Assembly: GCA_007449985.2 (NCBI GenBank)
Contig: VIIQ02000714.1
Span: forward strand, 1 to 64,000
Length of the DNA: 64,000 bases
Reading direction: 5' to 3'
Source of the DNA: Desmodesmus armatus
Taxonomy: Eukaryota; Chlorophyta; Chlorophyceae; Sphaeropleales; Scenedesmaceae
The notes below the pieces were generated by a model. The model was not told where the DNA came from and did no database searches. It worked only from the letters and a program-made list of their open reading frames with translations. Each line of letters begins with the position of its first letter. The first letter of the stretch is position 1. Below, in pieces: positions 1-39,500 of this stretch. A program made the position numbers and the translations under genes.

Positions 1-1188
1 AGGTGATAATGCACTTCTTGGGCTCTTGCCCCTTTCCGCCCATTCCTGCATGCACTCATACAGCTGCTGCGGGGGCGTGCTTTCTCACCGTCTGCTTGCT
101 CCTGCTGTGTGGGTCTACTTCATGCAGGCTGTGCAAGCCTTGCACACAAGCTGCCGCTGCTGTAGCTGGCTCCTGCGCGACGTAGGCGGCAATTACGCAG
201 GTGAGGTTATATCAGTGTGTTTACAGCCTGAACACGCCGAAGTTATGCTGTGCTCCGCGTCGGAGGCTTGACAGATGGCACGATGGAAATGGCCCCACTG
301 CCAGTGCAGCTTACGTTGCACTTGATTACTGCCGTGAAGCACATGAAACGTCTCGGATATATGACTGTAATCAGTCTAGGCATTTGTTGGGTCGCTGCAC
401 GCACTCACCGTAAATGCACAGCAGTGTGTTGCCAGCTTGTCAACTAGTTCAACTTTGCTGCAGCAACGTGCACGCCCAGCAGCTGTTTTCAGCACTATAG
501 AGTACTGGAAATCTGTGTGTGCAAGGCTGCGGCAAACGATGCAGGTCTGTGTGGATTTGAGCGTTGCCACGGTCACAACATTGGACGGAGTAAACTGCTG
601 CCACTTGCACTTATCTGCACGATCAGTGACGTTTTTAGATGTATCTTGCGACATTGAGCGCACTGCTGTTCCTTGCCTGTACCTGTGCTGCAATGTAGGT
701 TTTGGCAGCAGTATTTGACTGTCCCAACAGAACTGCCAGGCAGCAGCAGCAACTCAACTGAGGCTGGCTGCCAGGCTGCAGACGCGAAGCACACGGTGAG
801 AAGTATACTCTCAGCGAATGTCTGATGCCTGCAGTGCCAGCATGTGTATGCATGAATGCTCACAGCTGAAGGGCTGTACAGGCAGTTGTTCAAGCAGTAC
901 GGCTGCGCTGCCAGCAACCAAGCAGCCACCCAATTACATCAATCACCACAGCACCAGACACAAAACCACCCATGCATGCAGCAGCAGCAGTGGGCTCTGA
1001 ACAAAAGGCCAGCAGCATGCAGCCCCATCAAGCATGACCAGTACATGGCCCGTACGAGTACTGCCAAACGCGGGCAGCAGCGCTGTGCGCGCGGCTGCAC
1101 CCACAGCAGCAGCAGGCCAAGTGCAGCACAGGCACAGCCAGCAGGTTACCAAACAGGCCAGCATGGCAGTACAGCAGAGCAAGTGGCA

Positions 1189-3503
1189 TCACCTGTAGTG
1201 TGCTGGGGGGTAGTCACCCTCACTACCAAGGTGGATGTCACCCTGATCATCGGTGTACTCCTCACCCCAGGGTGTGCTGATCACATGCCACAGCAAAGGC
1301 AGCCCCTCAACATCCCTTTTGACAGCACCAGCAACAAGCTCCTGCTCAAACACCTTCCTAACAACACTCTGCAACTCATGCGCACCGCTGCACTGGAGGT
1401 GTAGTGCTCATAGCGCTCATAGATGTGTGCACGAACCTTTGGCTTGGTGAACCCAAAGATGTGTTCAATGGGCCTGTTGATGTCAGGGCTGTAAGTAGGG
1501 ATGTCCACCCTCTGCTTGATGGGGTCCAGCTTAATAACAGGCTCTCATCATACTCGAGGGTGCTGATTTCGGCAATCTTCTGAATTTGTTGTTGTCGTAG
1601 CACAGCACGGGGCATCGGCCTTGTCACCCTTGCCATTGGTTAGGTTGTACTCCTTGGTCTTGCGCTCAAACTTTTGAACAATCTTGTACAGGTTGTCTGT
1701 AAACTCCTCACTTGTTGTGCTCTTTGCATCAATTGCTGTGCCTTTCTTCTGCAGGAGAGGCAAGAAGTGGCACAGGCAGCATGCCGAGGGGCGGTTAGAT
1801 GCGTACAAGTGGAGGCACTACAGGCACAGCAAGCCTGAACAGAGGACTGGATCTTGATCAGCTGCATGTGCCAGTGCTGACCCTGGAGTGTGGTACCCCT
1901 GTCAACATCACCAACAGCAAGGGACTGCACAAGCTGTTCTGGAGGTGTAGCGGCTGTGACCCTGACAGGCAGCATTATCGGCTGTGCACAGCTAAAACCT
2001 GAAGTCACCAGAACACTAGGCTGTCCCTTCTGCCCAGTGCGCCCACGTGAACAGCTGGTGTTACCTGCAAGCAGCAGAGTGTGCAGCAGTGAGGTCAGGT
2101 TCATGCAGCTGTTGTGGAAGTTTAGGCTGGATGCGGGGTACTGCCACCAGGTTGTGCCACCCTTTTGGGGGGCGCCTGTTGATTTCTACTGCTATGGGGC
2201 AGGCATCTGGGTTTTGGTTGATGACAGGCACCATTGGACTGGCATTCACCAGTACTCAAAAGGTGACATAGCTGCAATGATATGAGGCTGAACCTAGCAG
2301 CCATGAGGGCTGGCGAGGTGGTGGTGCGGGTGCATGCAGCAGACATGCAGACCCTGGTTGTGTGCTGGCTGCCTTGTTTGCTGGCGCGGTTGCTGCCAGG
2401 TCTGGTGCTGCTGTGGTGCTGACACCCAGCTATGCTAGCTGTTTGATTGAGTGGCAAGGCAGCGTGAGGCGTATGTGGCTGCACTGCTAAACCCGGCGTG
2501 CGGGGCAGCAGCGGCTGAGTCATGCAACTGCTGATGAAGGTATCTCTGTGGTCACACCCTTGTAACAGCACAGCAACACCACCACCTGATAGTTGTAGTC
2601 GTCCACACGCGTACTGCCATCCATCCGCTTGTTGTGCTTCCGTTTGATATGGGAAGTACCAGTGGTGAATTCCATGTAGACAAGGCCGTGGAGGACTCGA
2701 AGGCGGGGTGGGCGCTGACGGCAGCGATGATGTGGACTTTTGTGGGGTCACTCTTGTGTCCAACAGGGATAGGGCACACATCGCTGAAGTTCACCTCATG
2801 CTTGTCACACCACACAGCAACAGAGTCATGATTGCCACCTGAAGCACAATGCTGGTCTCATCAATAAAGACCATATTTGCAGCAAGGAGGGCTCAACTGC
2901 AAGCCTCTCAATCAGCCCTTAGCCCTAGTGACCCTCTCAGCCTTTTCCTCCTTGCTGAGTGCGCGCTTGAAGGTAATGCGCCTGCGCCCAGGTCTGGGTC
3001 GGCATCGTGCATTGCTGCCCTGAGCTGTGGTACAGTGATGTTGTGGCGGCAAGGATACTCTGCAGCTCAGGAGTGTGGTCAACTGCGTCCTGAATCGATG
3101 TGAAGTACACCAGCCTGTGATGGGTAGCTTCTTGACCTTGACTTCCACCCACCGCCTTCTTCACAAGCGCAGCAGCCCGCTTTGCCACATCAGGGTCTAC
3201 CACCCTCGGCCGCCCAGACCTGTGCGCATCTTCGCAGGTGTGGTTGCCGCCCTTGACATGGTCAAACCAGTCCTGCATGAACCTTCTGGTACGGCTAATG
3301 TCACCGCAGTGTGGCAGGTTGTTAAAGGTCTGCTCCCATTCCTTCTTCTGCGTCTCGAAGGAGGCTGTTGCTTCCTGCCATCTTTCAGTCGAGGAGTGTG
3401 CTGTCACGCCGGCTGCTACCACAACACAAACTGCCAGCCACCTGACCCACATGGGTTGTAGTGGGGCTCTTGTGCTTTTCCACAGGATCTACCTCAATGG
3501 GGT
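1189..3503 (-). pseudogene. Tc1/mariner-like DDE transposase, unit 1 (frame-broken)
   Basis: Same two-exon transposase as in unit 3: exon A about 3503-2586, intron about 2585-1749, exon B about 1748-1189. The reading frame breaks repeatedly through one-base losses, for example where units 2 and 3 have extra bases around 2581 and 3000-3130. The DDE signature pieces survive in fragments: the second catalytic Asp region and the SPDINRPIEH motif (third acidic residue) lie in exon B. As written it cannot encode a full protein. Whether the breaks are biological or consensus errors cannot be told from this sequence, because units 2 and 3 carry different breaks. Confidence 0.7.
1781..2565 (+). pseudogene. 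Intron-nested zinc-domain/Vsr-like nuclease, unit 1 (frame-broken)
   Basis: Copy of the nuclease gene described in unit 2, lying antisense inside the transposase intron. The zinc-binding part (cysteines in FWRCSGC) and the DFYCYGAG / VDDRHHW core are both recognisable, but they fall in different frames because of one-base deletions near 1797, 2002 and 2280-2500. The start ATG at 1781 and the TAA at 2563 occupy the same positions, relative to the intron edges, as in the other units. Confidence 0.6.
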
Positions 3504-5459
3504 CTGGAGGCAAGGAAAAGGCAGAATGACAGGGGCAGTTGCAGGCAAGCTTGTGTCACTGACACCTTCCAGTTGGTAACTGCTTTGACCACGTTTGACT
3601 TTCCGGACAGATGTCAGACCCGCAGTCAGCCGCTCACAAAGTCTCATCCACCAAGTGCTGTCTCACGGTTGCTGCACACACTGCACACAAAGTATTTGTT
3701 TGTTACTACTGTATTATGTGGCAGCGCTCTGCGCCAGCTGCTGCTTCTGCCCAGACCTCATCGCCCCACCTCGCATGTGTGAGTGTGACCCGGCTTTGTT
3801 TCAAAACTGGCGCATCTGCTGGAGCTGCGCTTGTCCCAGAGGGAACGCATCTATATGTTTTGTCGCTGTTGCTAGGCTGGGGCGCCCCTGGGGCACGCAC
3901 TGCTGGGGTCGCATTTGAACTGTGCTGATCGTTGCAAGTGGTCGCTGCTTCCCTCCCTTATCAAGATCACTAGACGCAGCTATCTCCTTGGTCTGGAAGT
4001 AGCAGGGTGCAGCTGCAGGAGCGAGAAGTGCAACGGCACCATTGCCACCCCAGGCAGATACCTACTGCTTCTGCTGTCAGGTACCCCCACCCCCAGTTTG
4101 ACCCCCCTGGGACCTACACCCCAGGAGCTGCGCAGCTGTGCAGGTGTGCTTCGCTGGTGGCACTGCTCGCTAAGCTACAATATACATACAACTCATTTGC
4201 AAAAGCTTGGGCTAGCAGCACTGAGACCTGAGCCTTCAGCTACTGCTGGATAAGATTTCCTCCCAGCTGAAGGTGATAATGCACTTCTTGGGCTCTTGCC
4301 CCTTTCCGCCCATTCCTGCATGCACTCATACAGCTGCTGGGGGGCGTGCTTTCTCACGTCTGCTTGCTCTGCTGTGGTGGGTCTACTTCCATGCAGGCTG
4401 TGCAAGCCTTGCACACAAGCTGCCGCTGCTGTAGCTGGCTCCTGCGCGACGTAGGCGGCACATTACGCAGGTGAGGTTATATCAGTGTGTTTACAGCCTG
4501 AACACGCCGAAGTTATGCTGTGCTCCGCGTCGGAGGCTTGACAGATGGCACGATGGAAATGGCCCCACTGCCAGTGCAGCTTACGTTGCACTTGATTACT
4601 GCCGTGAAGCACATGAAACGTCTCGGATATATGACTGTAATCAGTCTAGGCATTTGTTGGGTCGCTGCACGCACTCACCGTAAATGCACAGCAGTGGTGT
4701 TGCCAGCTTGTCAACTAGTTCAACTTTGCTGCAGCAACGTGCACGCCCAGCAGCTGTTTTCAGCACTATAGAGTACTGGAAATCTGTGTGTGCAAGGCTG
4801 CGGCAAACGATGCAGGTCTGTGTGGATTTGAGCTGTTGCCACGGTCACAACATTGGACGGAGTAAACTGCTGCCACTTGCACTTATCTGCACGATCAGTG
4901 ACGTTTTAGATGTATCTTGCGACATTGAGCGCACTGCTGTTCCTTGCCTGTACCTGTGCTGCAATGTAGGTTTTGGCAGCAGTATTTGACTGTCCCAACA
5001 GAACTGCCAGGCAGCAGCAGCAACTCAACTGAGGCTGGCTGCCAGGCTGCAGACGCGAAGCACACGGTGAGAAGTATACTCTCAGCGAATGTCTGATGCC
5101 TGCAGTGCCAGCATGTGTATGCATGAATGCTCACAGCTGAAGGGCTGTACAGGCAGTTGTTCAAGCAGTACGGCTGCGCTGCCAGCAACCAAGCAGCCAC
5201 CCAATTACATCAATCACCACAGCACCAGACACAAAACCACCCATGCATGCAGCAGCAGCAGTGGGCTCTGAACAAAAGGCCAGCAGCATGCAGCCCCATC
5301 AAGCATGACCAGTACATGCCCGTACGAGTTACTGCCAAACGCGGGCAGCAGCGCTGTGCGCGCGGCTGCACCCACAGCAGCAGCAGGCCAAGTGCAGCAC
5401 AGGCACAGCCAGCAGGTTACCAAACAGGCCAGCATGGCAGTACAGCAGAGCAAGTGGCA

Positions 5460-7738
5460 TCACCTGTAGTGTGCTGGGGGGTAGTCACCCTCACTACCAA
5501 GGTGGATGTCACCCTGATCATCGGTGTACTCCTCACCCCAGGGTGTGCTGATCACATGCCACAGCAAAGGCAGCCCCTCAACATCCCTTTTGACAGCACC
5601 AGCAACAAGCTCCTGCTCAAACCACCTTCCTAACAACACTCTGCAACTCATGCGCACACGGCGAACCCAAAGATGTGTTCAATGGGCCTGTTGATGTCAG
5701 GGCTGTAAGTAGGGATGTCCACCCTCTGCTTGATGGGGTCCAGCTTAATAACAGGCTCATCATCATACTCGAGGGTGCTGATTTCTGCAATCTTCTGAAT
5801 TTTGTTGTTGTCGTAGCACAGCACCGGGGCATCGGCCTTGTCACCCTTGCCATTGGTTAGGTTGTACTCCTTGGTCTTGCGCTCAAACTTTTGAACAATC
5901 TTGTACAGGTTGTCTGTAAACTCCTCACTTGTTGTGCTCTTTGCATCAATTGCTGTGCCTTTCTTCTGCAGGAGAGGCAAGAAGTGGCACAGGCAGCATG
6001 CCGAAGGGGCGGTTAGATGCGTACAAGTTGGAGGCACTACAGGCACAGCAAGCCTGAACAGAGGACTGGATCTTGATCAGCTGCATGTGCCAGTGCTGAC
6101 CCTGGAGTGTGGTACCCCTGTCAACATCACCAACAGCAAGGGACTGCACAAGCTGTTCTGGAGGTGTAGCGGCTGTGACCCTGACAGGCAGCATTATCGG
6201 CTGTGCACAGCTAAAACCCTGAAGTCACCAGAACACCTAGGCTGTCCCTTCTGCCCAGTGCGCCCACGTGAACAGCTGGTGTTACCTGCAAGCAGCAGAG
6301 TGTGCAGCAGTGAGGTCAGGTTCATGCAGCTGTTGTGGAAGTTTAGGCTGGATGCGGGGTACTGCCACCAGGTTGTGCCACCCTTTTGGGGGGCGCCTGT
6401 TGATTTCTACTGCTATGGGGCAGGCATCTGGGTTTTGGTTGATGACAGGCACCATTGGACTGGCATTCACCAGTACTCAAAAGGTGACATAGCTGGCAAT
6501 GATATGAGGCTGAACCTAGCAGCCATGAGGGCTGGCGAGGTGGTGGTGCGGGTGCATGCAGCAGACATGCAGAACCCTGGTTGTGTGCTGGCTGCCTTGT
6601 TTGCTGGCGCGGTTGCTGCCAGGTCTGGTGCTGCTGTGGTGCTGACACCCAGCTATGCTAGCTGTTTGATTGAGTGGCAAGGCAGCGTGAGGCCGTATGT
6701 GGCTGCACTGCTAAACCCCGGCGTGCCGGGGCAGCAGCGGCTGAGTCATGCAACTGCTGATGAAGGTATCTCTGTGGTCACACCCTTGTAACAGCACAGC
6801 AACACCACCCACCTGATAGTTGTAGTCGTCCACACGCGTACTGCCATCCATCCGCTTGTTGTGCTTCCGTTTGATATGGGAAGTCCAGTGGTGAATTCCA
6901 TGTAGACAAGGCCGTGGAGGACTCGAAGGCGGGGTGGGCGCTGACGGCAGCGATGATGTGGACTTTTGTGGGGTCACTCTTGTGTCCAACAGGGATAGGG
7001 CACACATCGCTGAAGTTCACCTCATGCTTGTCACACCACACAGCAACAGAGTCATGATTGCCACCCTGAAGCACAATGCTGGTCTCATCAATAAAGACCA
7101 TATTTTGCAGCAAGGAGGGCTCAACTGCAAGCCTCTCAATCAGCCCCTTAGCCCTAGTGACCCTCTCAGCCTTTTCCTCCTTGCTGAGTGCGCGCTTGAA
7201 GGTAATGCGCCTGCGCACCAGGTCTGGGTCGGCATCGTGCATTGCTGCCTGAGCTGTGGTACAGTGATGTTGTGGTCGGCAAGGATACTCTGCAGCTCAG
7301 GAGTGTGGTCAACTGCGTCCTGAATCGATGTGAAGTACACCAGCCTGTGATGGGTAGCCTTCTTGACCTTGACTTCCACCCACCGCCCCTTCTTCACAAG
7401 CGCAGCAGCCCGCTTTGCCACATCAGGGTCTACCACCCTCGGCCGCCCAGACCTGTGCGCATCTTCGCAGGTGTGGTTGCCGCCCTTGACATGGTCAAAC
7501 CAGTCCTGCATGAACCTTCTGGTACGGCTAATGTCACCGCAGTGTGGCAGGTTGTTAAAGGTCTGCTCCCATTCCTTCTTCTGCGTCTCGAAGGAGGCTG
7601 TTGCTTCCTGCCATCTTTCAGTCGAGGAGTGTGCTGTCACGCCGGCTGCTACCACAACACAAACTGCCAGCCACCTGACCCACATGGGTTTGTAGTGGGG
7701 CTCTTTGTGCTTTTCCACAGGATCTACCTCAATGGGGT
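5460..7738 (-). pseudogene. Tc1/mariner-like DDE transposase, unit 2 (deletion and frameshifts)
   Basis: Exon A about 7738-6813, intron about 6812-5966, exon B about 5965-5460. Exon A carries the HTH region (SGRPRVVDPDVAKRAAAL) and the first DDE aspartate (MVFIDETSI). A base is missing near 7248 (GCTGCCTGAG where unit 3 has GCTGCCCTGAG), and more are missing near 6886 and 6912, so the frame breaks. Exon B is open through the second catalytic segment (VLCYDNNK) and SPDINRPIEHIFGF, then runs into a deletion of about 70 bp near 5656. Compared with unit 3 it is non-functional as written. Confidence 0.75.
5998..6791 (+). CDS. Intron-nested zinc-domain plus Vsr/DUF559-like nuclease (best copy)
   Basis: Plus-strand gene inside the minus-strand transposase intron. 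Two modules are visible. The first is a treble-clef or zinc-ribbon segment (FWRCSGC, then GCPFC about 27 residues later) of the kind found in DUF4379-like domains. The second is a nuclease-like core: PVDFYCYGAG, then WVLVDDRHHW, then an R-x-L-x-x-M-x-A-G-E-V-V-V-R-V strand. That order (Asp-Phe, a strand ending in Asp-Asp with a following His, Arg-containing helix, final strand) is what Vsr, EDxHD homing nucleases and DUF559 proteins show within the PD-(D/E)XK-like fold; the assignment is inference from pattern. From about 6010 to the TAA at 6789 the frame is open. The ATG at 5998, conserved in all copies, is one base out of frame in this copy and in frame in unit 3. It could be a homing-type or repair-type enzyme, active or relict. 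Confidence 0.6.
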
Positions 7739-9057
7739 CTGGAGGCAAGGAAAAGGCAGAATGACAGGGGCAGTTGCAGGCAAGCTTGTGTCACTGACAC
7801 CTTCCAGTTGGTAACTGCTTTGACCACGTTTGACTTTCCGGACAGATGTCAGACCCGCAGTGTGAAGGTGATAATGCACTTCTTGGGCTCTTGCCCCTTT
7901 CCGCCCATTCCTGCATGCACTCATACAGCTGCTGGGGGGCGTGCTTTCTCACCGTCTGCTTGCTCTGCTGTGGTGGGTCTACTTCCATGCAGGCTGTGCA
8001 AGCCTTGCACACAAGCTGCCGCTGCTGTAGCTGGCCCCTGCGCGACGTAGGCGGCACATTACGCAGGTGAGGTTATATCAGTGTGTTTACAGCCTGAACA
8101 CGCCGAAGTTATGCTGTGCTCCGCGTCGGAGGCTTGACAGATGGCACGATGGAAATGGCCCCACTGCCAGTGCAGCTTACGTTGCACTTGATTACTGCCG
8201 TGAAGCACATGAAACGTCTCGGATATATGACTGTAATCAGTCTAGGCATTTGTTGGGTCGCTGCACGCACTCACCGTAAATGCACAGCAGTGGTGTTGCC
8301 AGCTTGTCAACTAGTTCAACTTTGCTGCAGCAACGTGCACGCCCAGCAGCTGTTTTCAGCACTATAGAGTACTGGAAATCTGTGTGTGCAAGGCTGCGGC
8401 AAACGATGCAGGTCTGTGTGGATTTGAGCTGTTGCCACGGTCACAACATTGGACGGAGTAAACTGCTGCCACTTGCACTTATCTGCACGATCAGTGACGT
8501 TTTTAGATTTATCTTGCGACATTGAGCGCACTGCTGTTCCTTGCCTGTACCTGTGCTGCAATGTAGGTTTTGGCAGCAGTATTTGACTGTCCCAACAGAA
8601 CTGCCAGGCAGCAGCAGCAACTCAACTGAGGCTGGCTGCCAGGCTGCAGACGCGAAGCACACGGTGAGAAGTATACTCTCAGCGAATGTCTGATGCCTGC
8701 AGTGCCAGCATGTGTATGCATGAATGCTCACAGCTGAAGGGCTGTACAGGCAGTTGTTCAAGCAGTACGGCTGCGCTGCCAGCAACCAAGCAGCCACCCA
8801 ATTACATCAATCACCACAGCACCAGACACAAAACCACCCATGCATGCAGCAGCAGCAGTGGGCTCTGAACAAAAGGCCAGCAGCATGCAGCCCCATCAAG
8901 CATGACCAGTACATGGCCCGTACGAGTTACTGCCAAACGCGGGCAGCAGCGCTGTGCGCGCGGCTGCACCCACAGCAGCAGCAGGCCAAGTGCAGCACAG
9001 GCACAGCCAGCAGGTTACCAAACAGGCCAGCATGGCAGTACAGCAGAGCAAGTGGCA

Positions 9058-11396
9058 TCACCTGTAGTGTGCTGGGGGGTAGTCACCCTCACTACCAAGG
9101 TGGATGTCACCCTGATCATCGGTGTACTCCTCACCCCAGGGTGTGCTGATCACATGCCACAGCAAAGGCAGCCCCTCAACATCCCTTTTGACAGCACCAG
9201 CAACAAGCTCCTGCTCAAACACCTTCCTAACAACACTCTGCAACTCATGCGCACCCGCTGCACTGGAGGTGTAGTGCTCATAGCGCTCATAGATGTGTGC
9301 ACGAACCTTTGGCTTGGTGAACCCAAAGATGTGTTCAATGGGCCTGTTGATGTCAGGGCTGTAAGTAGGGATGTCCACCCTCTGCTTGATGGGGTCCAGC
9401 TTAATAACAGGCTCATCATCATACTCGAGGGTGCTGATTTCTGCAATCTTCTGAATTTTGTTGTTGTCGTAGCACAGCACCGGGGCATCGGCCTTGTCAC
9501 CCTTGCCATTGGTAGGTTGTACTCCTTGGTCTTGCGCTCAAACTTTTGAACAATCTTGTACAGGTTGTCTGTAAACTCCTCACTTGTTGTGCTCTTTGCA
9601 TCAATTGCTGTGCCTTTCTTCTGCAGGAGAGGCAAGAAGTGGCACAGGCAGCATGCCGAAGGGGCGGTTAGATGCGTACAAGTTGGAGGCACTACAGGGC
9701 ACAGCAAGCCTGAACAGAGGACTGGATCTTGATCAGCTGCATGTGCCAGTGCTGACCCTGGAGTGTGGTACCCCTGTCAACATCACCAACAGCAAGGGAC
9801 TGCACAAGCTGTTCTGGAGGTGTAGCGGCTGTGACCCTGACAGGCAGCATTATCGGCTGTGCACAGCTAAAACCCTGAAGTCACCAGAACACCTAGGCTG
9901 TCCCTTCTGCCCAGTGCGCCCACGTGAACAGCTGGTGTTACCTGCAAGCAGCAGAGTGTGCAGCAGTGAGGTCAGGTTCATGCAGCTGTTGTGGAAGTTT
10001 AGGCTGGATGCGGGGTACTGCCACCAGGTTGTGCCACCCTTTGGGGGGCGCCTGTTGATTTCTACTGCTATGGGGCAGGCATCTGGGTTTTGGTTGATGA
10101 CAGGCACCATTGGACTGGCATTCACCAGTACTCAAAAGGTGACATAGCTGGCAATGATATGAGGCTGAACCTAGCAGCCATGAGGGCTGGCGAGGTGGTG
10201 GTGCGGGTGCATGCAGCAGACATGCAGAACCCTGGTTGTGTGCTGGCTGCCTTGTTTGCTGGCGCGGTTGCTGCCAGGTCTGGTGCTGCTGTGGTGCTGA
10301 CACCCAGCTATGCTAGCTGTTTGATTGAGTGGCAAGGCAGCGTGAGGCCGTATGTGGCTGCACTGCTAAACCCCGGCGTGCCGGGGCAGCAGCGGCTGAG
10401 TCATGCAACTGCTGATGAAGGTATCTCTGTGGTCACACCCTTGTAACAGCACAGCAACACCACCCACCTGATAGTTGTAGTCGTCCACACGCGTACTGCC
10501 ATCCATCCGCTTGTTGTGCTTCCGTTTGATATGGGAAGTACCAGTGGTGAATTCCATGTAGACAAGGCCGTTGGAGGACTCGAAGGCGGGGTGGGCGCTG
10601 ACGGCAGCGATGATGTGGACTTTTGTGGGGTCACTCTTGTGTCCAACAGGGATAGGGCACACATCGCTGAAGTTCACCTCATGCTTGTCACACCACACAG
10701 CAACAGAGTCATGATTGCCACCCTGAAGCACAATGCTGGTCTCATCAATAAAGACCATATTTTGCAGCAAGGAGGGCTCAACTGCAAGCCTCTCAATCAG
10801 CCCCTTAGCCCTAGTGACCCTCTCAGCCTTTTCCTCCTTGCTGAGTGCGCGCTTGAAGGTAATGCGCCTGCGCACCAGGTCTGGGTCGGCATCGTGCATT
10901 GCTGCCCTGAGCTGTGGTACAGTGATGTTGTGGTCGGCAAGGATACTCTGCAGCTCAGGAGTGTGGTCAACTGCGTCCTGAATCGATGTGAAGTACACCA
11001 GCCTGTGATGGGTAGCCTTCTTGACCTTGACTTCCACCCACCGCCCCTTCTTCACAAGCGCAGCAGCCCGCTTTGCCACATCAGGGTCTACCACCCTCGG
11101 CCGCCCAGACCTGTGCGCATCTTCGCAGGTGTGGTTGCCGCCCTTGACATGGTCAAACCAGTCCTGCATGAACCTTCTGGTACGGCTAATGTCACCGCAG
11201 TGTGGCAGGTTGTTAAAGGTCTGCTCCCATTCCTTCTTCTGCGTCTCGAAGGAGGCTGTTGCTTCCTGCCATCTTTCAGTCGAGGAGTGTGCTGTCACGC
11301 CGGCTGCTACCACAACACAAACTGCCAGCCACCTGACCCACATGGGTTTGTAGTGGGGCTCTTTGTGCTTTTCCACAGGATCTACCTCAATGGGGT
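9058..11396 (-). CDS. Tc1/mariner/IS630-like DDE transposase, unit 3
   Basis: Cut-and-paste transposase. Exon A (11396-10468) starts after the pyrimidine-rich acceptor TTGCCTCCAG and is fully open. It carries an HTH-like stretch (SGRPRVVDPDVAKRAAAL), a second helical DNA-binding region, and MVFIDETSI with the first catalytic Asp. A GTGGGT donor and a CTCCTGCAG acceptor define an 847-bp intron, in phase 0. Exon B (9620-9058) carries the second Asp (LCYDNNK) and, 37 residues further, SPDINRPIEH with the third acidic position, the classic Tc1/mariner layout. A one-base deletion at about 9513 (ATTGGTAGG where units 1 and 2 read ATTGGTTAGG) breaks exon B here. An upstream exon ending near 11461 (CAACTGGAAG before GTGTCAG) would join in phase, so the N-terminus is unresolved; no ATG precedes exon A in frame. 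Confidence 0.75.
9621..10467 (-). other. Transposase intron hosting the antisense nuclease gene
   Basis: Read on the minus strand, the segment opens with GTGGGT after CAACTATCAG and closes with TGCCTCTCCTGCAG before AAGAAAGGC. Removing it joins two open transposase segments in phase 0 between the first and second catalytic aspartates. Equivalent introns lie at about 1749-2585 and 5966-6812. Splicing is inferred, not shown. Confidence 0.65.
9653..10447 (+). CDS. Intron-nested zinc-domain plus Vsr-like nuclease, unit 3
   Basis: Same gene as in unit 2. Here the conserved ATG (9653) reads MPKGRLDAYKLEALQ and continues in frame into the zinc module, supporting it as the true start. A missing T near 10041 (CCCTTTGGGGGG against CCCTTTTGGGGGG in unit 2) then shifts the frame just before the nuclease core, which resumes in another frame through to TAA at 10445. 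The gene begins 33 bases inside one edge of the transposase intron and ends 20 bases from the other, so it fills the intron almost wall to wall. Confidence 0.6.
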
Positions 11397-12174
11397 CTGG
11401 AGGCAAGGAAAAGGCAGAATGACAGGGGCAGTTGCAGGCAAGCTTGTGTCACTGACACCTTCCAGTTGGTAACTGCTTTGACCACGTTTGACTTTCCGGA
11501 CAGATGTCAGACCCGCAGTCAGCCGCTCACAAAGTCTCATCCACCAAGTGCTGTCTCACGGTTGCTGCACACACTGCACACAAAGTATTTGTTTGTTACT
11601 ACTGTACTTATGTGGCAGCGCTCTGCGCCAGCTGCTGCTTCTGCCCAGACCTCATCGCCCCACCTCGCATGTGTGAGTGTGACCCGGCTTTGTTTCAAAA
11701 CTGGCGCATCTGCTGGAGCTGCGCTTGTCCCAGAGGGAACGCATCTATATGTTTTGTCGCTGTTGCTAGGCTGGGGCGCCCCTGGGGCACGCACTGCTGG
11801 GGTCGCATTTGAACTGTGCTGATCGTTGCAAGCTGGTCGCTGCTTCCCTCCCTTATCAAGATCACCTAGACGCAGCTATCTCCTTGGTCTGGAAGTACAA
11901 GCAGGGTGCAGCTGCAGGAGCGAGAAGTGCAACGGCACCATTGCCACCCCAGGCAGATACCTACTGCTTCTGCTGTCAGGTACCCCCACCCCCAGTTTGA
12001 CCCCCCCTGGGACCTACACCCCAGGAGCTGCTGCAGCTGTGCCCAGGTGTGCTTCGCTGGTGGCACTGCTCGCTAAGCTACAATATACATACAACTCATT
12101 TGCAAAAGCTTTGGGCTAGCAGCACTGAGACCTGAGCCTTCAGCTACTGCTGGATAAGACTTTCCTCCCAGCTG

Positions 12175-12837
12175 TGTGCAGAGTCAGCTGTTGTGATTTG
12201 AAATGTCGTCCCTGTTCAGCTGCTGTCGTCTTTGCATGGTTTAAGCGACGTGTATAAGTACAAACAGGTTTATGGGGCGCTTGACAGCAAAGGTTCTGTA
12301 AGGTCTTTGAGGTTTTACTGCACTGTGCAGGGTCCCCCCCAAGGGCGTTCCAGACCCTCCAGCAGGTCCTTTTCCTGGTGTGCTGACGCTTGGCCTATCT
12401 AGGTGAGTCGGCCCGGGTGCACTCGCCTTCGGCAGCAGCCTCCAGTGCGGTGTTTAGGGACACGGTGCAGCCTGTTGCGTGATGTTGTTAGAACAGCTTT
12501 GGCTACGTGCGAGTTCTGTGTTGGATCGCGCTGACAGACCAGCCCTGGGCAGCAGACGGCGCGGGCCATCAGCCATCAGCAGCAACATTTCTACCTGTCG
12601 CCACTCACTTCTTTGCTCGGCTGGGGGGCAGTTTTAGGTTACACATACACTATAGGACCATATGGCACCAAGGTTCAGCAAGCTACGGCCCCATTGCAGC
12701 CACAGCTCACCCAGCTGATCCTGGCTGCTACAGCAGCTGTGGGGCCAAGGTTTCCCAGCACAGTGATCCTCATATACGGCATGTGGATGGCAGCATCAGG
12801 CTTGTTATGTCGTTTCTGCTTCAGGTAACGGCCAACA
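12175..12837 (+). promoter_or_regulatory. Upstream region of RPL13
   Basis: About 660 bp between the end of the repeat array and the RPL13 start codon. It probably contains the promoter and 5'UTR. A TATA-like GTGTATAAGTAC lies near 12250. No coding sequence is recognisable. The array therefore sits directly upstream of a strongly expressed housekeeping gene. Confidence 0.4.
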
Positions 12838-15800
12838 ATGGTGCGCCACAACAACGTCATTCCCAATGGGCACTGGAAGAAGAAGTGGCAGTTCCACGTG
12901 AGGACCTGGTTCAACCAGCCCGCACGTGCGCTGAGGCGCAGGAAGGGTACGTACCGGCTCAGCCTTGGTGCTACGGACCAGCAGTCAGCGGTGATGACCA
13001 TGCAGTGGGCTTGTTGCTGTGGCACACACACCCAGCAGTGACTGCGCAGCATTGAAGGCAACAGCTGCCCTTGCAAACCCGTGGGTGTACTCTCTCACTT
13101 TGCCGCTGTCCTGCTGTCCTGCTGCTGTTGTGTGCTGACAGCCCGTGCTGAGAAGGCACGTGCGCTGTTCCCACGCCCCTCAGCTGGACCACTGAGGCCC
13201 GTTGTGCGCGGACAGACCATCAAGTACAACAGCAAGCAGAAGCTGGGCCGCGGCTTCACCCTGGAGGAGCTGAAGGTACGCAGACAGGAGCAGCAGCAGC
13301 AGCAATGGCAGCGCCACCAGCAGTGGCAGCACCAGCAGACTGGGTGGGAGGCACGGCGGGGTGTGCGAGCTGAAGACTGGGTGGCAGTAACAGCGGGTGT
13401 GCGAGCAAGGTTGGCAGCATCTGCTGCTGGTGCAGCAGGAATGAGACCAGCAGTTGCACCAGGAGCAGCAGACTGCGTGCAGGTTGTCCCTGCATAATGT
13501 CCGCAGGACGCAGAGTGTTGGCGATGCAGTGGCAGCACCAGCGTGGTTGCTGCTGTTGGGGCAACCTGAGCCTGGCTGGCAGCTCACAGCCCGCTGTCAG
13601 GCACAGCTGGTTGGCATGCTGCGCCTCTGGATGCAGTTCGTATTTGTGTCACGGCGCTTCATGCAGGGGAAGGGGGCGGCAAATCAGTGGTCAGTGGTCA
13701 ATGTGATGTAGCCAAGACACAGTGGCAGGGGTCCGGTTGGTGAAGCAGCCAGCAAGCCAGTTGCAACGGCAATGCAGCAGCAGCTAGCTTGATCTTGTAT
13801 ATCGATCACAGCTGCTGCAGCCTTGGGGAGGGGTTTTGAGGATGGAGCCAGCAGCCACAGCAGCTGACGTTCCGGGAGGGTCGGGCATGTGATGCCAGTG
13901 CTACTGGCGAAAGAGCAATGCGCTGTGTGCAGCCACATTACCCAGCCGGTTGTGCCACTCGCATCGTGTGCTATGGCATCGTGTATGTATGCCTCACCGT
14001 AGCTCTGCACCCTTTCTGGCTGCATAAGGTCAGCTGTTGCAAGCAGCACTTCTCTTCAGGTGCTTAGTAACAGCATCACACCCTGCCGCCGTGCTGATTG
14101 TCCTGCTGTGTGTGCACAGGAGGCTGGCATCCCAAGAAGCTGGCCCCCACCATCGGCATTGCCGTGGACCACAGGCGCAGGAACCGCAGCCTGGAGTCCC
14201 TGCAGGTGCGAGGCAGCAGCTAGCAAGCAAGCAATGCAATCAAACACACTGCCGGCACAGCAAGCACACTGCTGGCTCAGCAAGCACAGCCTGGCAAAGC
14301 AGAGGGTGGGGGCATCGCTGTCAGACGTGTTCTCAAGCGGAGTGGGCTGGGGCAAGGGGGGGGGGGGAAAGCAAAAGACGTGCCAGTGGGGGTGGGGGCC
14401 GCCAGATGAGCATGCACAGCACATAGTTGGGTCAGCAAGGTGCGAGGCAGGCAGCAAGCAAGCACACTGCTGACTCAGCAAGGACAGCGCTGACAAAGCA
14501 GAAGATGGGGCATCGTTGTCAGATGTGTCCCCAAGCGGTTTGCTAGTGGGCTGGGGCAAGTGGGCCGGGGCAAAGCAACAGACTTGTCAGCGGTTCAACC
14601 AACCTAGTTCACAGCACGGGTGGGGGGTCTGAAGAGGAGCATACACAGCAGATAGTGGTGTCAGTAGTGGGGTCAGTAGTGTGCAGCATTGAGTCCCCCA
14701 CAGGTTCGCGGAAGTCAGCAGGAATGCAAACACAGTGCAGGCTGAGCTGATTGTGGGGGCATTGGGGAGGCATTGTCAGAAATGTTTTTGGGGGGTAGGC
14801 TAGTCGATGGAGGCAAAGTTGTGGCGGGAAAGCAAAGTTGACAGCCGGGCAAACGAAAGAAAGCCCACGTGACGGGAAACTGAAGATGATGTGGTATGTG
14901 TTAGACACCTGAGTTGCATCACAACAGGTACATGCCAACGTCTTGATGAGTCAAGCTGATGGCTGGGAGCTTTGTCGTATGTCTCTTGTGCCTGCAGGAG
15001 AACGTGAACCGCCTGAAGGCTTACAAGAGCAACCTGGTGGTGTTCCCCCGCCACAGGAACTCCAAGAAGCCCAAGGTGAGGAGTGTAACAGGGTTTTGCA
15101 GCCCCAGTGGCAGGGTTAGCAGTGGCGCAATCTGGGCTGAAGTGGCCCAGGGAACAAAGGCATGTAAACCCTCACTGAGCAGCCCAGGATGCCAGCAGTG
15201 TGGGTGTTGAAGATTCCTGGTATTCGCAGTTGGCATGAAGTCGGCATGAAGTGCAAGAACAAAGCTTACAAGGTGTTCTTGCTGAGAGCACTGCTGTCCC
15301 TGCTTGCTGTGCTGTGCTGTGTCGTGCTGTGCTGTGCTCAGGCCATGGATGCCAGTGCCGAGGCGTGCCAGACGGCCACCCAGCACAAGGGCACCGTGAT
15401 GCCTATCAGCAAGGCAGCACCCACCCTGGAGAAGGTCGCCCTCACAGCAGAGATGAAGGTGAGGGGGGTTGATCTGTGGGACGTGCATGGGAGGTATGAG
15501 GAGTACAGGTGTTGTTGGGCGCAAAGGGGGAAATGCCCACAAATCAAAAGTTATTGGGTCAAAAGGGAGTGTGAAGGGCAAGCCAGCATGGTTGCAGGGT
15601 GGTCAGCCTGCGGGCAACATGGTGCAGACGGAAGGATCTGGTACGCTCACAGCAGAGGCGTTTTGTGGGGCGAAGGGGTGCCGGCTGTGGCACGTGGGTG
15701 GACGGGGAGGGGGGGGGGCAGGTTGAGGCCATTGCAGCAGGGGTTGAAGGTGAAGAGCAGAGACCAAGAGGCAGTCTGTGATATGAATGGAGGTAAACAG

Positions 15801-36595: not shown

Positions 36596-39500
36596 TGCTG
36601 TACACTCACTGCAGGTGCCTTAGCAAGTCAGCCAGGCAGCTTGTTTGGCAACCTGTGTAGCTTGCAGATGCGTAATGTGTGGCAGGTGTTTGGACAGCAC
36701 AGTTCTCAGATCGTTTGGTCAGCAGTGCTCCCAGCCTTGCCGTTTCACATGCTCCCCATGTGCGGCGCCCTTGTTTTCATAGCACGGCCTGGCAACAGCT
36801 TACGAGGGGGGGGGGGGTCCAGGGACTATCATGTGCATATCACAAACACCTATCATGTGCTGGGGGATGAAACAATCGTTGTCACAACACGTAACATGCG
36901 GCAGCAGTCAGTAAATGTGGGTATATAGGTAGTATGCATGTCTTCCTGGCCCTCCTTGTGCTCCAAGCCCCTTCAAGGTGTGGGTAGTGCAATGCAATTG
37001 ACAACCACTGCATAAAATTGTACAACTTTTCTTCTGCGTTTGTGTGTCAGGTGTATGAGCTGCTGCACAAGAACTATGTAGAGGATGATGACGCCATGTT
37101 CAGGTGCGACGCCCTCCCATATTCAGGAGAAAAATTCAGCTCAGGTTCAGGTTCAGATTCAGGTTCAGTTCAGATTCAAATTCAGGTTCAGGTTCAGATT
37201 CAGGTTGAGGTTCAGTCCAGGTTCAGTCCAGGTTCAGATTCAGGTTCAGGTTCAGGTTCAGTTCAGGCTCAGGTTCAGGTTCAGGTTCAGGTTCAGTTCA
37301 GGCTCACTTCAGGCTCAGTTCATTTCAGGCTGTTGAGTTCAGGTAACGCCAGGACCCACCGAATGAGAGTGGGAACTCTGTTGCAGCTTCCCAACTCAGT
37401 GTACTGTTCTTGGTTTTTGGGGTTGACCAGGGGGGGTGGTTTTACCAGTGTACTGTTACCCACGCAGTGTACTGCCGACTACCAGCCTTGTAGCCTCTTG
37501 TCGTGCTTCACGCTTGTTCTAGGCAGGCATCAACCACACACAGCATCAAGCGTTCTGAGGACGTGTAGGGGAGCACAGCCTAGTGCATGAGGCTGACACA
37601 AGTCTGCTGGTCTGATTTGCTGACTGGCCCGGTGGGGTTGATTGGGACCATGCTGTCGACCAGCACTGCGGCCTTGTGCCCTTGAAGCAACATCCGATTT
37701 GGCGCTGTTGTGGTGTACTGTGCTGTGCTGTGCTGTGCTGTGGTGTGCTGTGTGGTGTGCTATGCTGTGCTGTGCTGTGTGCAGGTTCAACTACAGCCCT
37801 GAGTTCCTGGCATGGGCCCTGCAGCCCCCCGGGTACCGGTCCGACTGGCATGTGGGTGTGAGGGTCAAGGGCAGCGGCAAGTTGGTGGCCTTCATCAGCG
37901 GCATCCCTAGCACACTCCTGGTGAGTCGTCACAACTTGACCTGAATCAGGGCAGGCGCTTATGTTGTGTGGCCGTGACAAGTGGGGAGGCTTGATCTGTT
38001 TGCTCGTCCTTGCTGTATTTTTTTCACTTTGTCCTGTCAACTTCAAGTGCTCCTTGTCCTCTTGTCCCCTATGGGCCTGCAACTGGCACTTTTCAGGTGT
38101 TGGCAAGCATGAACGGGTCAGCCCTGAGATTGAAGTGTATGGTTACAATTTTACTCATACATCGAGGTGTCAGCGTGCTTTTTGCGTCACCCCTTTTCCT
38201 TCCTCTTTCTTTTCCAGGCCAACGGCAGCCAGGTGAAGGCAGATGAGATCATGTTCACTCACATATGATGATGTCAATGTGCGTGTTGCGTCACCCTTTC
38301 CCTCATATCTTCCCAGGCCAACGGCAGCCAGGTGAAGGCAGATGAGATCATGTTCACTCACATATGATGATGTCAATGTGCGTGTTGCGTCACCCTTTCC
38401 CTCATATCTTCCCAGGCCAACGGCAGCCAGGTGAAGGCAGATGAGATCATGTTCACTCACATATGATGATGTCAATGTGCGTGTTGCGTCACCCTTTCCC
38501 TCGTTCCTTCCCAGGCCAACGGCAGCCAGGTGAAGGCAGTTGAGATCAACTTCCTGTGTGTGCTGAAGAAGCTGCGCAGCAAACGCCTGGCACCAGTGCT
38601 CATCAAGGTGCGAGGGTTACTTTTGATGGTCGTGGGGCAGGGGTGGGGGTACATGGCCGGGGGAGTTGGCTTAGGGTTGTGCATCACAGCTGGGCACATC
38701 TTGTGGTAGGTAAAAAGGAGGGGGCCGAAGCGTGCGCGACAAACAGCCACATTGTATTGCCACTGCACTCAGCCATGTGTGCTGAAGAAGCTGCGCAGCA
38801 AGCGCCTGGCACCAGTGCTCATCAAGGTGCGAGGGTTCAGGGTAAAAGTTTGTGGTTTTGGGATGCATCCGTAATCTGTTTTAACCTCCTGAGCGGCTGT
38901 GTTGTACAATGGGTACAGTGGGTGCAGGCCAAGCAGGGAATCAAAATTCGGACTGCCAGCACCACTTCCAAACAAGTACTGCAATTGATGCGAGCAAAAT
39001 GTGGTGCCGGCTGCTGCTGTGGCTATTGTCTGTGTTTGCAGGAGATTACCCGGCGTGTGAACCTTCAAGATATCTGGCAGGCTGCCTACACTGCTGGAGT
39101 AGTGCTGCCAAAGCCAGTGGCACAGTGCAGGTGTGCAATAATTGGAGCTTGCGAGGGGTCGGGACACTGTCTGTGTTTGTGGTTGTTGGTGCATCATGAT
39201 CTGTGGGCATGTGGCGTGCAGGGATGCCCCGTTGTGTTTTAGCACCCCGGAGGGGAACTCACACCAGCATGCAGGGACACCCTGCGACTCTGTCTAGTGT
39301 GATCTGAGTGGGTACGCGATCAAATGCCCATCCAAGTGCTGCATGTAATCACCTGTCAGAGGTGCGCTGCAGACAAAACGCAGCCCTGCAGACCCAAGAA
39401 AGCTGCGAGAAGAGGGTTGTGCTGGTGCAGCAATGCTGCCATGGCATCTGGTTGAGTCCGTTAGTGTGATTGTGTGATGTGCCGTGCTGTGCTGTGCTGC

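Follow-up and report, generated by a model that had tools for sequence, protein, structure and literature searches.

In the 64,000-nucleotide stretch of Desmodesmus armatus DNA analyzed here (the window), the transposase gene of a composite DNA transposon is interrupted by an interval whose simplest reading is a spliceosomal intron, and the opposite strand of that interval holds a gene for a probable nuclease of the EDxHD (Vsr-like) type. Our preferred explanation, which we judge an even call, is a cassette like the shintrons of mirusviruses carried by a transposon: the transposase gene of a composite IS630-type element would contain a spliceosomal intron with an antisense gene for a probable EDxHD (Vsr-like) endonuclease, and this enzyme would home on element DNA lacking the cassette.

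The window (contig C682; the genome assembly comprises 115.8 Mb in 831 contigs) begins at a contig end, within a tandem array of three element copies at 1-4269, 4271-7861, and 7866-12174. Its features are as follows.

1..3626, minus strand: S unit of copy 1, at the contig start, with many short gaps
1781..2565, plus strand: nuclease-type ORF of copy 1, frameshifted
3627..4269, no strand assigned: R unit separating copies 1 and 2
4271..7861, minus strand: S unit of copy 2, which joins copy 3 without an R unit and is missing ~60 bp of exon 2
5998..6791, plus strand: nuclease-type ORF of copy 2, with a frameshift near the N terminus; the correct frame is open at 6045-6791
7866..11519, minus strand: S unit of copy 3, the gene-bearing core of 3654 bp, delimited by comparison of arrays and elements
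9058..9620, minus strand: transposase exon 2 of copy 3 (second Asp and Glu of the DDE triad), with a frameshift near 9513
9621..10467, minus strand: spliceosomal-type intron of copy 3, phase 0, GTGGGT...CTGCAG, 847 nt (848 in the intact copy)
9653..10446, plus strand: antisense EDxHD/Vsr-like nuclease-type gene of copy 3, with a one-base frameshift (intact at L002:1500-2294, 264 aa)
10468..11406, minus strand: transposase exon 1 of copy 3 (helix-turn-helix, HTH, and first catalytic Asp), of uncertain start; the ORF is open from TTG 11406 and the first in-frame ATG is at ~11343
11520..12174, no strand assigned: R unit of 655 bp, the right end of the composite element, with imperfect terminal inverted repeats CAGC...GCTG

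The three window copies are 98.8 to 99.7% identical over aligned stretches. Short gaps make up almost all of the differences between them (one alignment of 4313 columns has 44 gap openings and 3 mismatches), so the frameshifts look like assembly errors. The antisense ORF is broken between ATG and stop in all three, and the intact version lies on contig C681. C680 and C682 have the same two flanks as C681, and the window array therefore probably belongs to a single locus that the assembly contains repeatedly. The same array is repeated at the end of C680, in C681, and at the start of C682 (flanks compared for C680 and C681), and a repeated array is likewise found at the end of C713, in C714, and at the start of C715 (flanks compared for C713 and C714). 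The assembly seems to present a single array locus more than once at both C680-C682 and C713-C715, and the copy counts given below take in repeats from multiply assembled contigs. Elsewhere in the window, positions 38150-38548 hold a short tandem repeat with a period of ~100 bp and copies 88.7 to 92.4% identical.

The transposase of copy 3 is split in phase 0 at 9621-10467, with borders GTGGGT...CTCCTGCAG, and the antisense ORF at 9653-10446 lies 32 and 21 bases inside the intron edges. A first-pass annotation had described an antisense gene nested in a transposase intron; the arrangement is present in the three window copies and recurs in three diverged element families of the genome, A (that of the window), B, and C, each with an IS630-type transposase, an intron, and an antisense frame. 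In all three families the intron occupies the same transposase position in phase 0 with GT-AG borders, its 5′ end being GTGGGT (A), GTGAGT (B), or GTGAGC (C) and its 3′ end CTGCAG throughout. The intron measures 848 nt in A and 799 in both B and C, with 823 in the family B copy of C555, the family B values being the printed 805 and 829 minus one codon per side. The borders are thus canonical, the host is a protein gene, and removal restores the exon frame in the three families, as in shintrons at the level of sequence. The lengths are not multiples of 3 and every sense frame holds at least five stops, which rules out an intein or read-through. An unspliced transposase would be without the second Asp and the Glu: in family A numbering, D1 (221) is in exon 1, and D2 (365) and E (409) are in exon 2, so intron removal is needed to join the catalytic residues. 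A group I or group II intron was set aside, since Rfam gave no match in window positions 1-13000 at the gathering cut-off or in 9560-10530 at E up to 1. Six U2 snRNA matches over the cut-off were found in the genome, and together with the GT-AG anatomy and the lack of an Rfam match they make a spliceosomal intron the simplest reading of the interval. Junction patterns for intronless copies of A, B, and C had no match in the genome with up to three mismatches allowed. TGTAA serves as a poly(A) signal in green algae; this motif overlaps the stop codon of the nuclease frame in A and C, not in B, and the antisense transcript could end within the intron if TGTAA is a poly(A) signal here.

Families B and C were found by protein search of the window's own genome at 34 to 36% identity, likewise in tandem arrays. 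Relative to family A, identity is 34 to 37% for the nuclease-type protein, 37 to 39% for exon 1, and 36 to 49% for exon 2, and the antisense frame is 254 to 264 aa long across the families. The family A nuclease search returned at least 146 matches (145 of 405 candidates scored); among the matches listed, at least 13 stop-free copies span residues 1-264 and one spans 3-264, some of them from repeatedly assembled contigs. The family C search returned at least 162 matches (149 of 446 candidates scored), and at least 52 of the copies listed are stop-free over residues 1-254. The remaining A and C copies listed include many that are partial, frameshifted, or stop-bearing. Seven stretches taken as examples share one anatomy, in which an intron filled by the antisense ORF separates exon 1 from exon 2, except that the stretch from C193 is a derivative without exon 2; that from C361 was left out of the splice-site comparison. 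The transposase matches listed (from 126 scored candidates out of 437) can be assigned to families A to C from their location and identity, and nuclease-free transposase relatives may exist beyond them. A fourth nuclease family was sought with the DNA pattern VDG....HW, which has 95+84 occurrences, the reversed control having 27+29; at least 11 places fall outside the known families, and all 10 that were read looked like chance. Family C elements with two stop-free nuclease copies lie on the window's contig outside the window (C682:272289-280868). A lone stretch at C579:155615-156024 (L016:4616-5025), with 74% DNA identity to the family A nuclease and no ORF of at least 100 aa running across it on that strand, is probably an old relic.

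When the intron frames of the families were compared, the best pair was the antisense nuclease frame, with scores of 350, 347, and 299 against at most 151, 144, and 115 for any other pair; the remaining five frames hold 5 to 20 stops each. Comparison of the units of different families by BLASTN gave no match inside the intron, matches being confined to exon pieces outside it. With only the antisense frame strongly conserved and the intron free of nucleotide matches, the antisense frame is, as judged from these alignments, a gene conserved as protein between families. This bears out the nested gene proposed earlier, since the frame is conserved in three families although the intron itself needs no coding. 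Between families dN is 0.67 to 0.81 and dS 1.4 to 1.8, the latter near saturation. Within families dN/dS is 0.36 to 0.95 where defined, and family C has no synonymous and five nonsynonymous changes; the changes are few and indicate no clear constraint, which would be expected for young copies and is also compatible with relaxation. Family C has no ATG at the homologous start.

Eight residues of the antisense product are invariant in A, B, and C: E106, D136, D149, H153, D169, G180, V184, and R185. The EDxHD-like order of residues noted in the first-pass annotation therefore holds as an invariant E-D-D-H-D-G-VR series in three families, with E, D, (D), H, and D preceding a G...V strand. In 20,000 column shuffles the core spacing was reproduced once and the full spacing never, with the spacing windows set after inspection of the motif. 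At the position of VDG in B and C, family A reads VDD. Two CxxC pairs lie upstream of the motif in A and B, and in family C the first CxxC is incomplete, with one Cys in C534 and none in C105. Motif and context point to a probable nuclease of the EDxHD (Vsr-like) type with a small Cys module.

Profile and fold searches did not extend this assignment. Pfam searches with all three families, and PHROGs and NCBIfam searches with family A, gave no credible match for the nuclease-type protein, the best weak Pfam rows being PF13408 for A (E 0.14) and PF01530 for C (E 0.0028, short of the cut-off of that model). Sequence searches of the PDB returned nothing relevant, and hhalign, with three families available, found nothing against E. 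coli Vsr or a profile of nine Vsr-type proteins (probability 0.5%). Two AlphaFold models, with mean pLDDT of 47.1 and 48.2, are too poor to judge the fold; with these as queries, the Foldseek and VIA matches listed include no nuclease, a result that excludes nothing. The similarity to nucleases in fold or profile that had been anticipated was thus not recovered, and the suggested resemblance to DUF4379 was not detected, a genome-wide search with PF14311 giving no match at E up to 0.1. No relatives were confirmed in viral contigs with the nuclease and exons 1 and 2 as queries or in prokaryote genomes with the nuclease and exon 1, and the family C query gave three epimerase rows at E ~1 in phages.

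Comparison of arrays, ends, and single elements gave an R-S-R layout in which S carries the genes (3654 bp in A) and R measures 655 bp (A), 680 bp (B), or 675 bp (C), with terminal inverted repeats that are perfect over 22 bp in C and imperfect in A and B. Among the family C R matches listed (40 of 124 candidates scored), at least three are on contigs for which no nuclease match is listed, namely solo R units flanked by 3-bp target duplications at C542:392527-393201 (CCA), C73:19583-20257 (CCT), and C6:8338-9012 (CCT) (L070-L072). R thus moves on its own, MITE-like. Composite elements have 3-bp duplications at C681 (TGT; right end taken from the matching C682), C581 (TGC), C283 (CTC), and C14 (TGT; C16 has the same flanks), and no clear duplication was seen at C75 (GTA/GCA) or C530 (right end two bases short). 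Altogether, seven of the nine loci with both ends read have a 3-bp target duplication, none of them TA. The S period in arrays is ~4.2 to 4.3 kb with R and ~3.6 kb without. R-less S-S junctions retain one to three extra bases (G or GTG in A, CA in B, CG in C), like excision scars, from which we infer that the transposase may excise R. At C193, ~30000-58000 (L030), an array consists of 2502-bp units that lack exon 2 and the nuclease start codon but retain R, exon 1, and the larger part of the nuclease frame, so array growth needs no whole transposase in each unit.

The IS630 transposase model NF033545 matches two of the three spliced proteins (best E 3e-10), family A being unmatched; DDE_3 falls below the cut-off in two of the three. 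A profile of the three transposases matches the mariner-type HTH of SETMAR at E 0.00047, and the distance from D2 to E is 43 to 47 residues. Duplication of a TA target site is a defining trait of Tc1/mariner. Of the earlier assignment to a Tc1/mariner-like transposase, the IS630-type kinship stands (NF033545, two of three families), and the rest does not, the target duplications being 3 bp and not TA and the layout R-S-R. Lacking TA duplications, the transposase is one that we would call IS630-type but outside classical Tc1/mariner.

In the preferred reading, a shintron-like cassette in a transposon, host splicing would remove the intron, so that the nuclease gene would cost the transposase little. 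The nuclease, produced from its own antisense transcript, would cut element-related DNA without the cassette, its targets being transposase alleles that have no intron or else sites that excision has left vacated or joined. With an intact copy as repair template the cut site would then be converted, which would spread or restore the element and promote its tandem growth. The lack of intronless copies fits completed homing, yet leaves no target. Long conservation in three families suggests continuing use of the nuclease-type gene, and for this reason a role as transposition helper rather than homing enzyme is worth weighing beside homing. Such a helper would cut donor or junction sites (S-S, S-R, or excision scars), and repair would keep or multiply the element to yield S arrays, a logic like that of TnpB/Fanzor or TnsA. 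The retention of the gene at the same place in three families, the S arrays with R kept or missing, the scar-like bases at R-less junctions, and the 2502-bp array unit, in which exon 2 is gone but R, exon 1, and the greater part of the nuclease frame persist, all agree with it. However, tandem arrays can also come from ordinary recombination between R copies or from assembly inflation, the 2502-bp unit has no nuclease start codon, and the last exon 1 copy of C558 ends before the nuclease, so the link is not without exception; we place this explanation on the unlikely side, while giving it real weight.

That the antisense gene encodes some other Cys-rich protein, such as a transposase repressor conserved for regulation, would accord with the lack of any fold or family match and with an antisense position suited to regulating the transposase mRNA. 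We consider it distinctly unlikely, because the E-D-D-H-D-G-VR series is invariant and antisense RNA regulation alone would not conserve a protein frame. The near-neutral changes within families, the many frameshifted, partial, or stop-bearing copies among the matches listed, and the lack of an initiation codon at the corresponding position in family C could instead mean that the gene is a parasitic relic, captured by the intron in the past and since then decaying as a passenger. Against this, the three families have diverged to ~35% identity with the frame still open, and at least 13 (A) and at least 52 (C) copies are stop-free over the whole query; decay of this kind strikes us as very improbable.

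Spliceosomal introns are mostly regarded as immobile. If the shintron-like reading is true, a homing-nuclease route in spliceosomal introns exists in cellular genomes and intron mobility is tied to DNA transposition. Because the copies are numerous and nearly identical, splicing, homing, and nuclease-assisted transposition can each be put to a direct test. A bolder proposal, which we offer tentatively and lean against, is that a resident intron-borne homing nuclease acts as the working partner of a eukaryotic cut-and-paste transposon. The transposase would move R ends and excise R, the nuclease would cut junctions or vacated or intronless copies, and repair would restore and tandemly multiply the core; such elements might be a cellular reservoir for mirusvirus shintrons, or the reverse.

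Known systems share parts of this arrangement. Judged by the titles and abstract openings listed, open-licence articles in PubMed Central yielded no nuclease in a transposase intron, and the only spliceosomal introns with homing nucleases found there were viral. The elements resemble IS630/Tc1/mariner in their DDE triad, the IS630 HMM match in two of three families, and the mariner-type HTH match and differ in the 3-bp duplications, the R-S-R layout, the 43 to 47 residues from D2 to E, and the intron with its nested gene. Fanzor and TnpB nucleases are RNA-guided and are not known to be intron-borne or Vsr-like. They nevertheless share, in eukaryotic transposons as outlined in PMC3627910, the condition of a nuclease as transposon passenger. 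EDxHD homing endonucleases (I-Bth0305I, PDB 3r3p, PMC3943268) and Vsr (1cw0) have the same order of the acidic and His series, although profile comparison based on the three families available showed no similarity. In Vsr-type proteins the interval from D51 to H64/Asp is 13 residues, as from 136 to 149 here, and that from D97 to G108 is 11, as from 169 to 180; the E-D interval is 26 against 30 here, D-H 5 against 4, and H-D 28 against 16. An endonuclease gene opposite in strand to its host intron has a precedent in I-DsqI, which PMC9548176 gives as an antisense homing endonuclease gene in a nuclear rDNA group I intron, expressed as antisense mRNA. There, however, the intron is a self-splicing group I intron in an rRNA gene and the enzyme is of the His-Cys type, whereas here the intron is spliceosomal-type and the motif EDxHD-like.

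The first-pass annotation knew of no described spliceosomal intron that carries an antisense nuclease in a DDE transposase; to say that none with a nuclease is described would now be too strong: the main text of PMC12768974 describes mirusvirus shintrons, though not in a transposon. These are spliceosomal homing introns with GT-AG borders and no group I or II signature that contain endonuclease genes, 16 of them VSR-like; the same text uses neither "antisense" nor "opposite strand," and its authors hold that eukaryotic genomes apparently lack equivalents. The likeness lies in a GT-AG intron without a group I or II signature that holds an endonuclease-type gene, assigned here by motif and context. 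The present case differs in that the genome is cellular, the intron sits within a DNA transposon, the interrupted gene encodes a transposase, the nested gene is antisense, and the arrangement occurs in three families. Mirusvirus shintrons are the closest known system, and the cassette described here looks like one, in a transposon and antisense.
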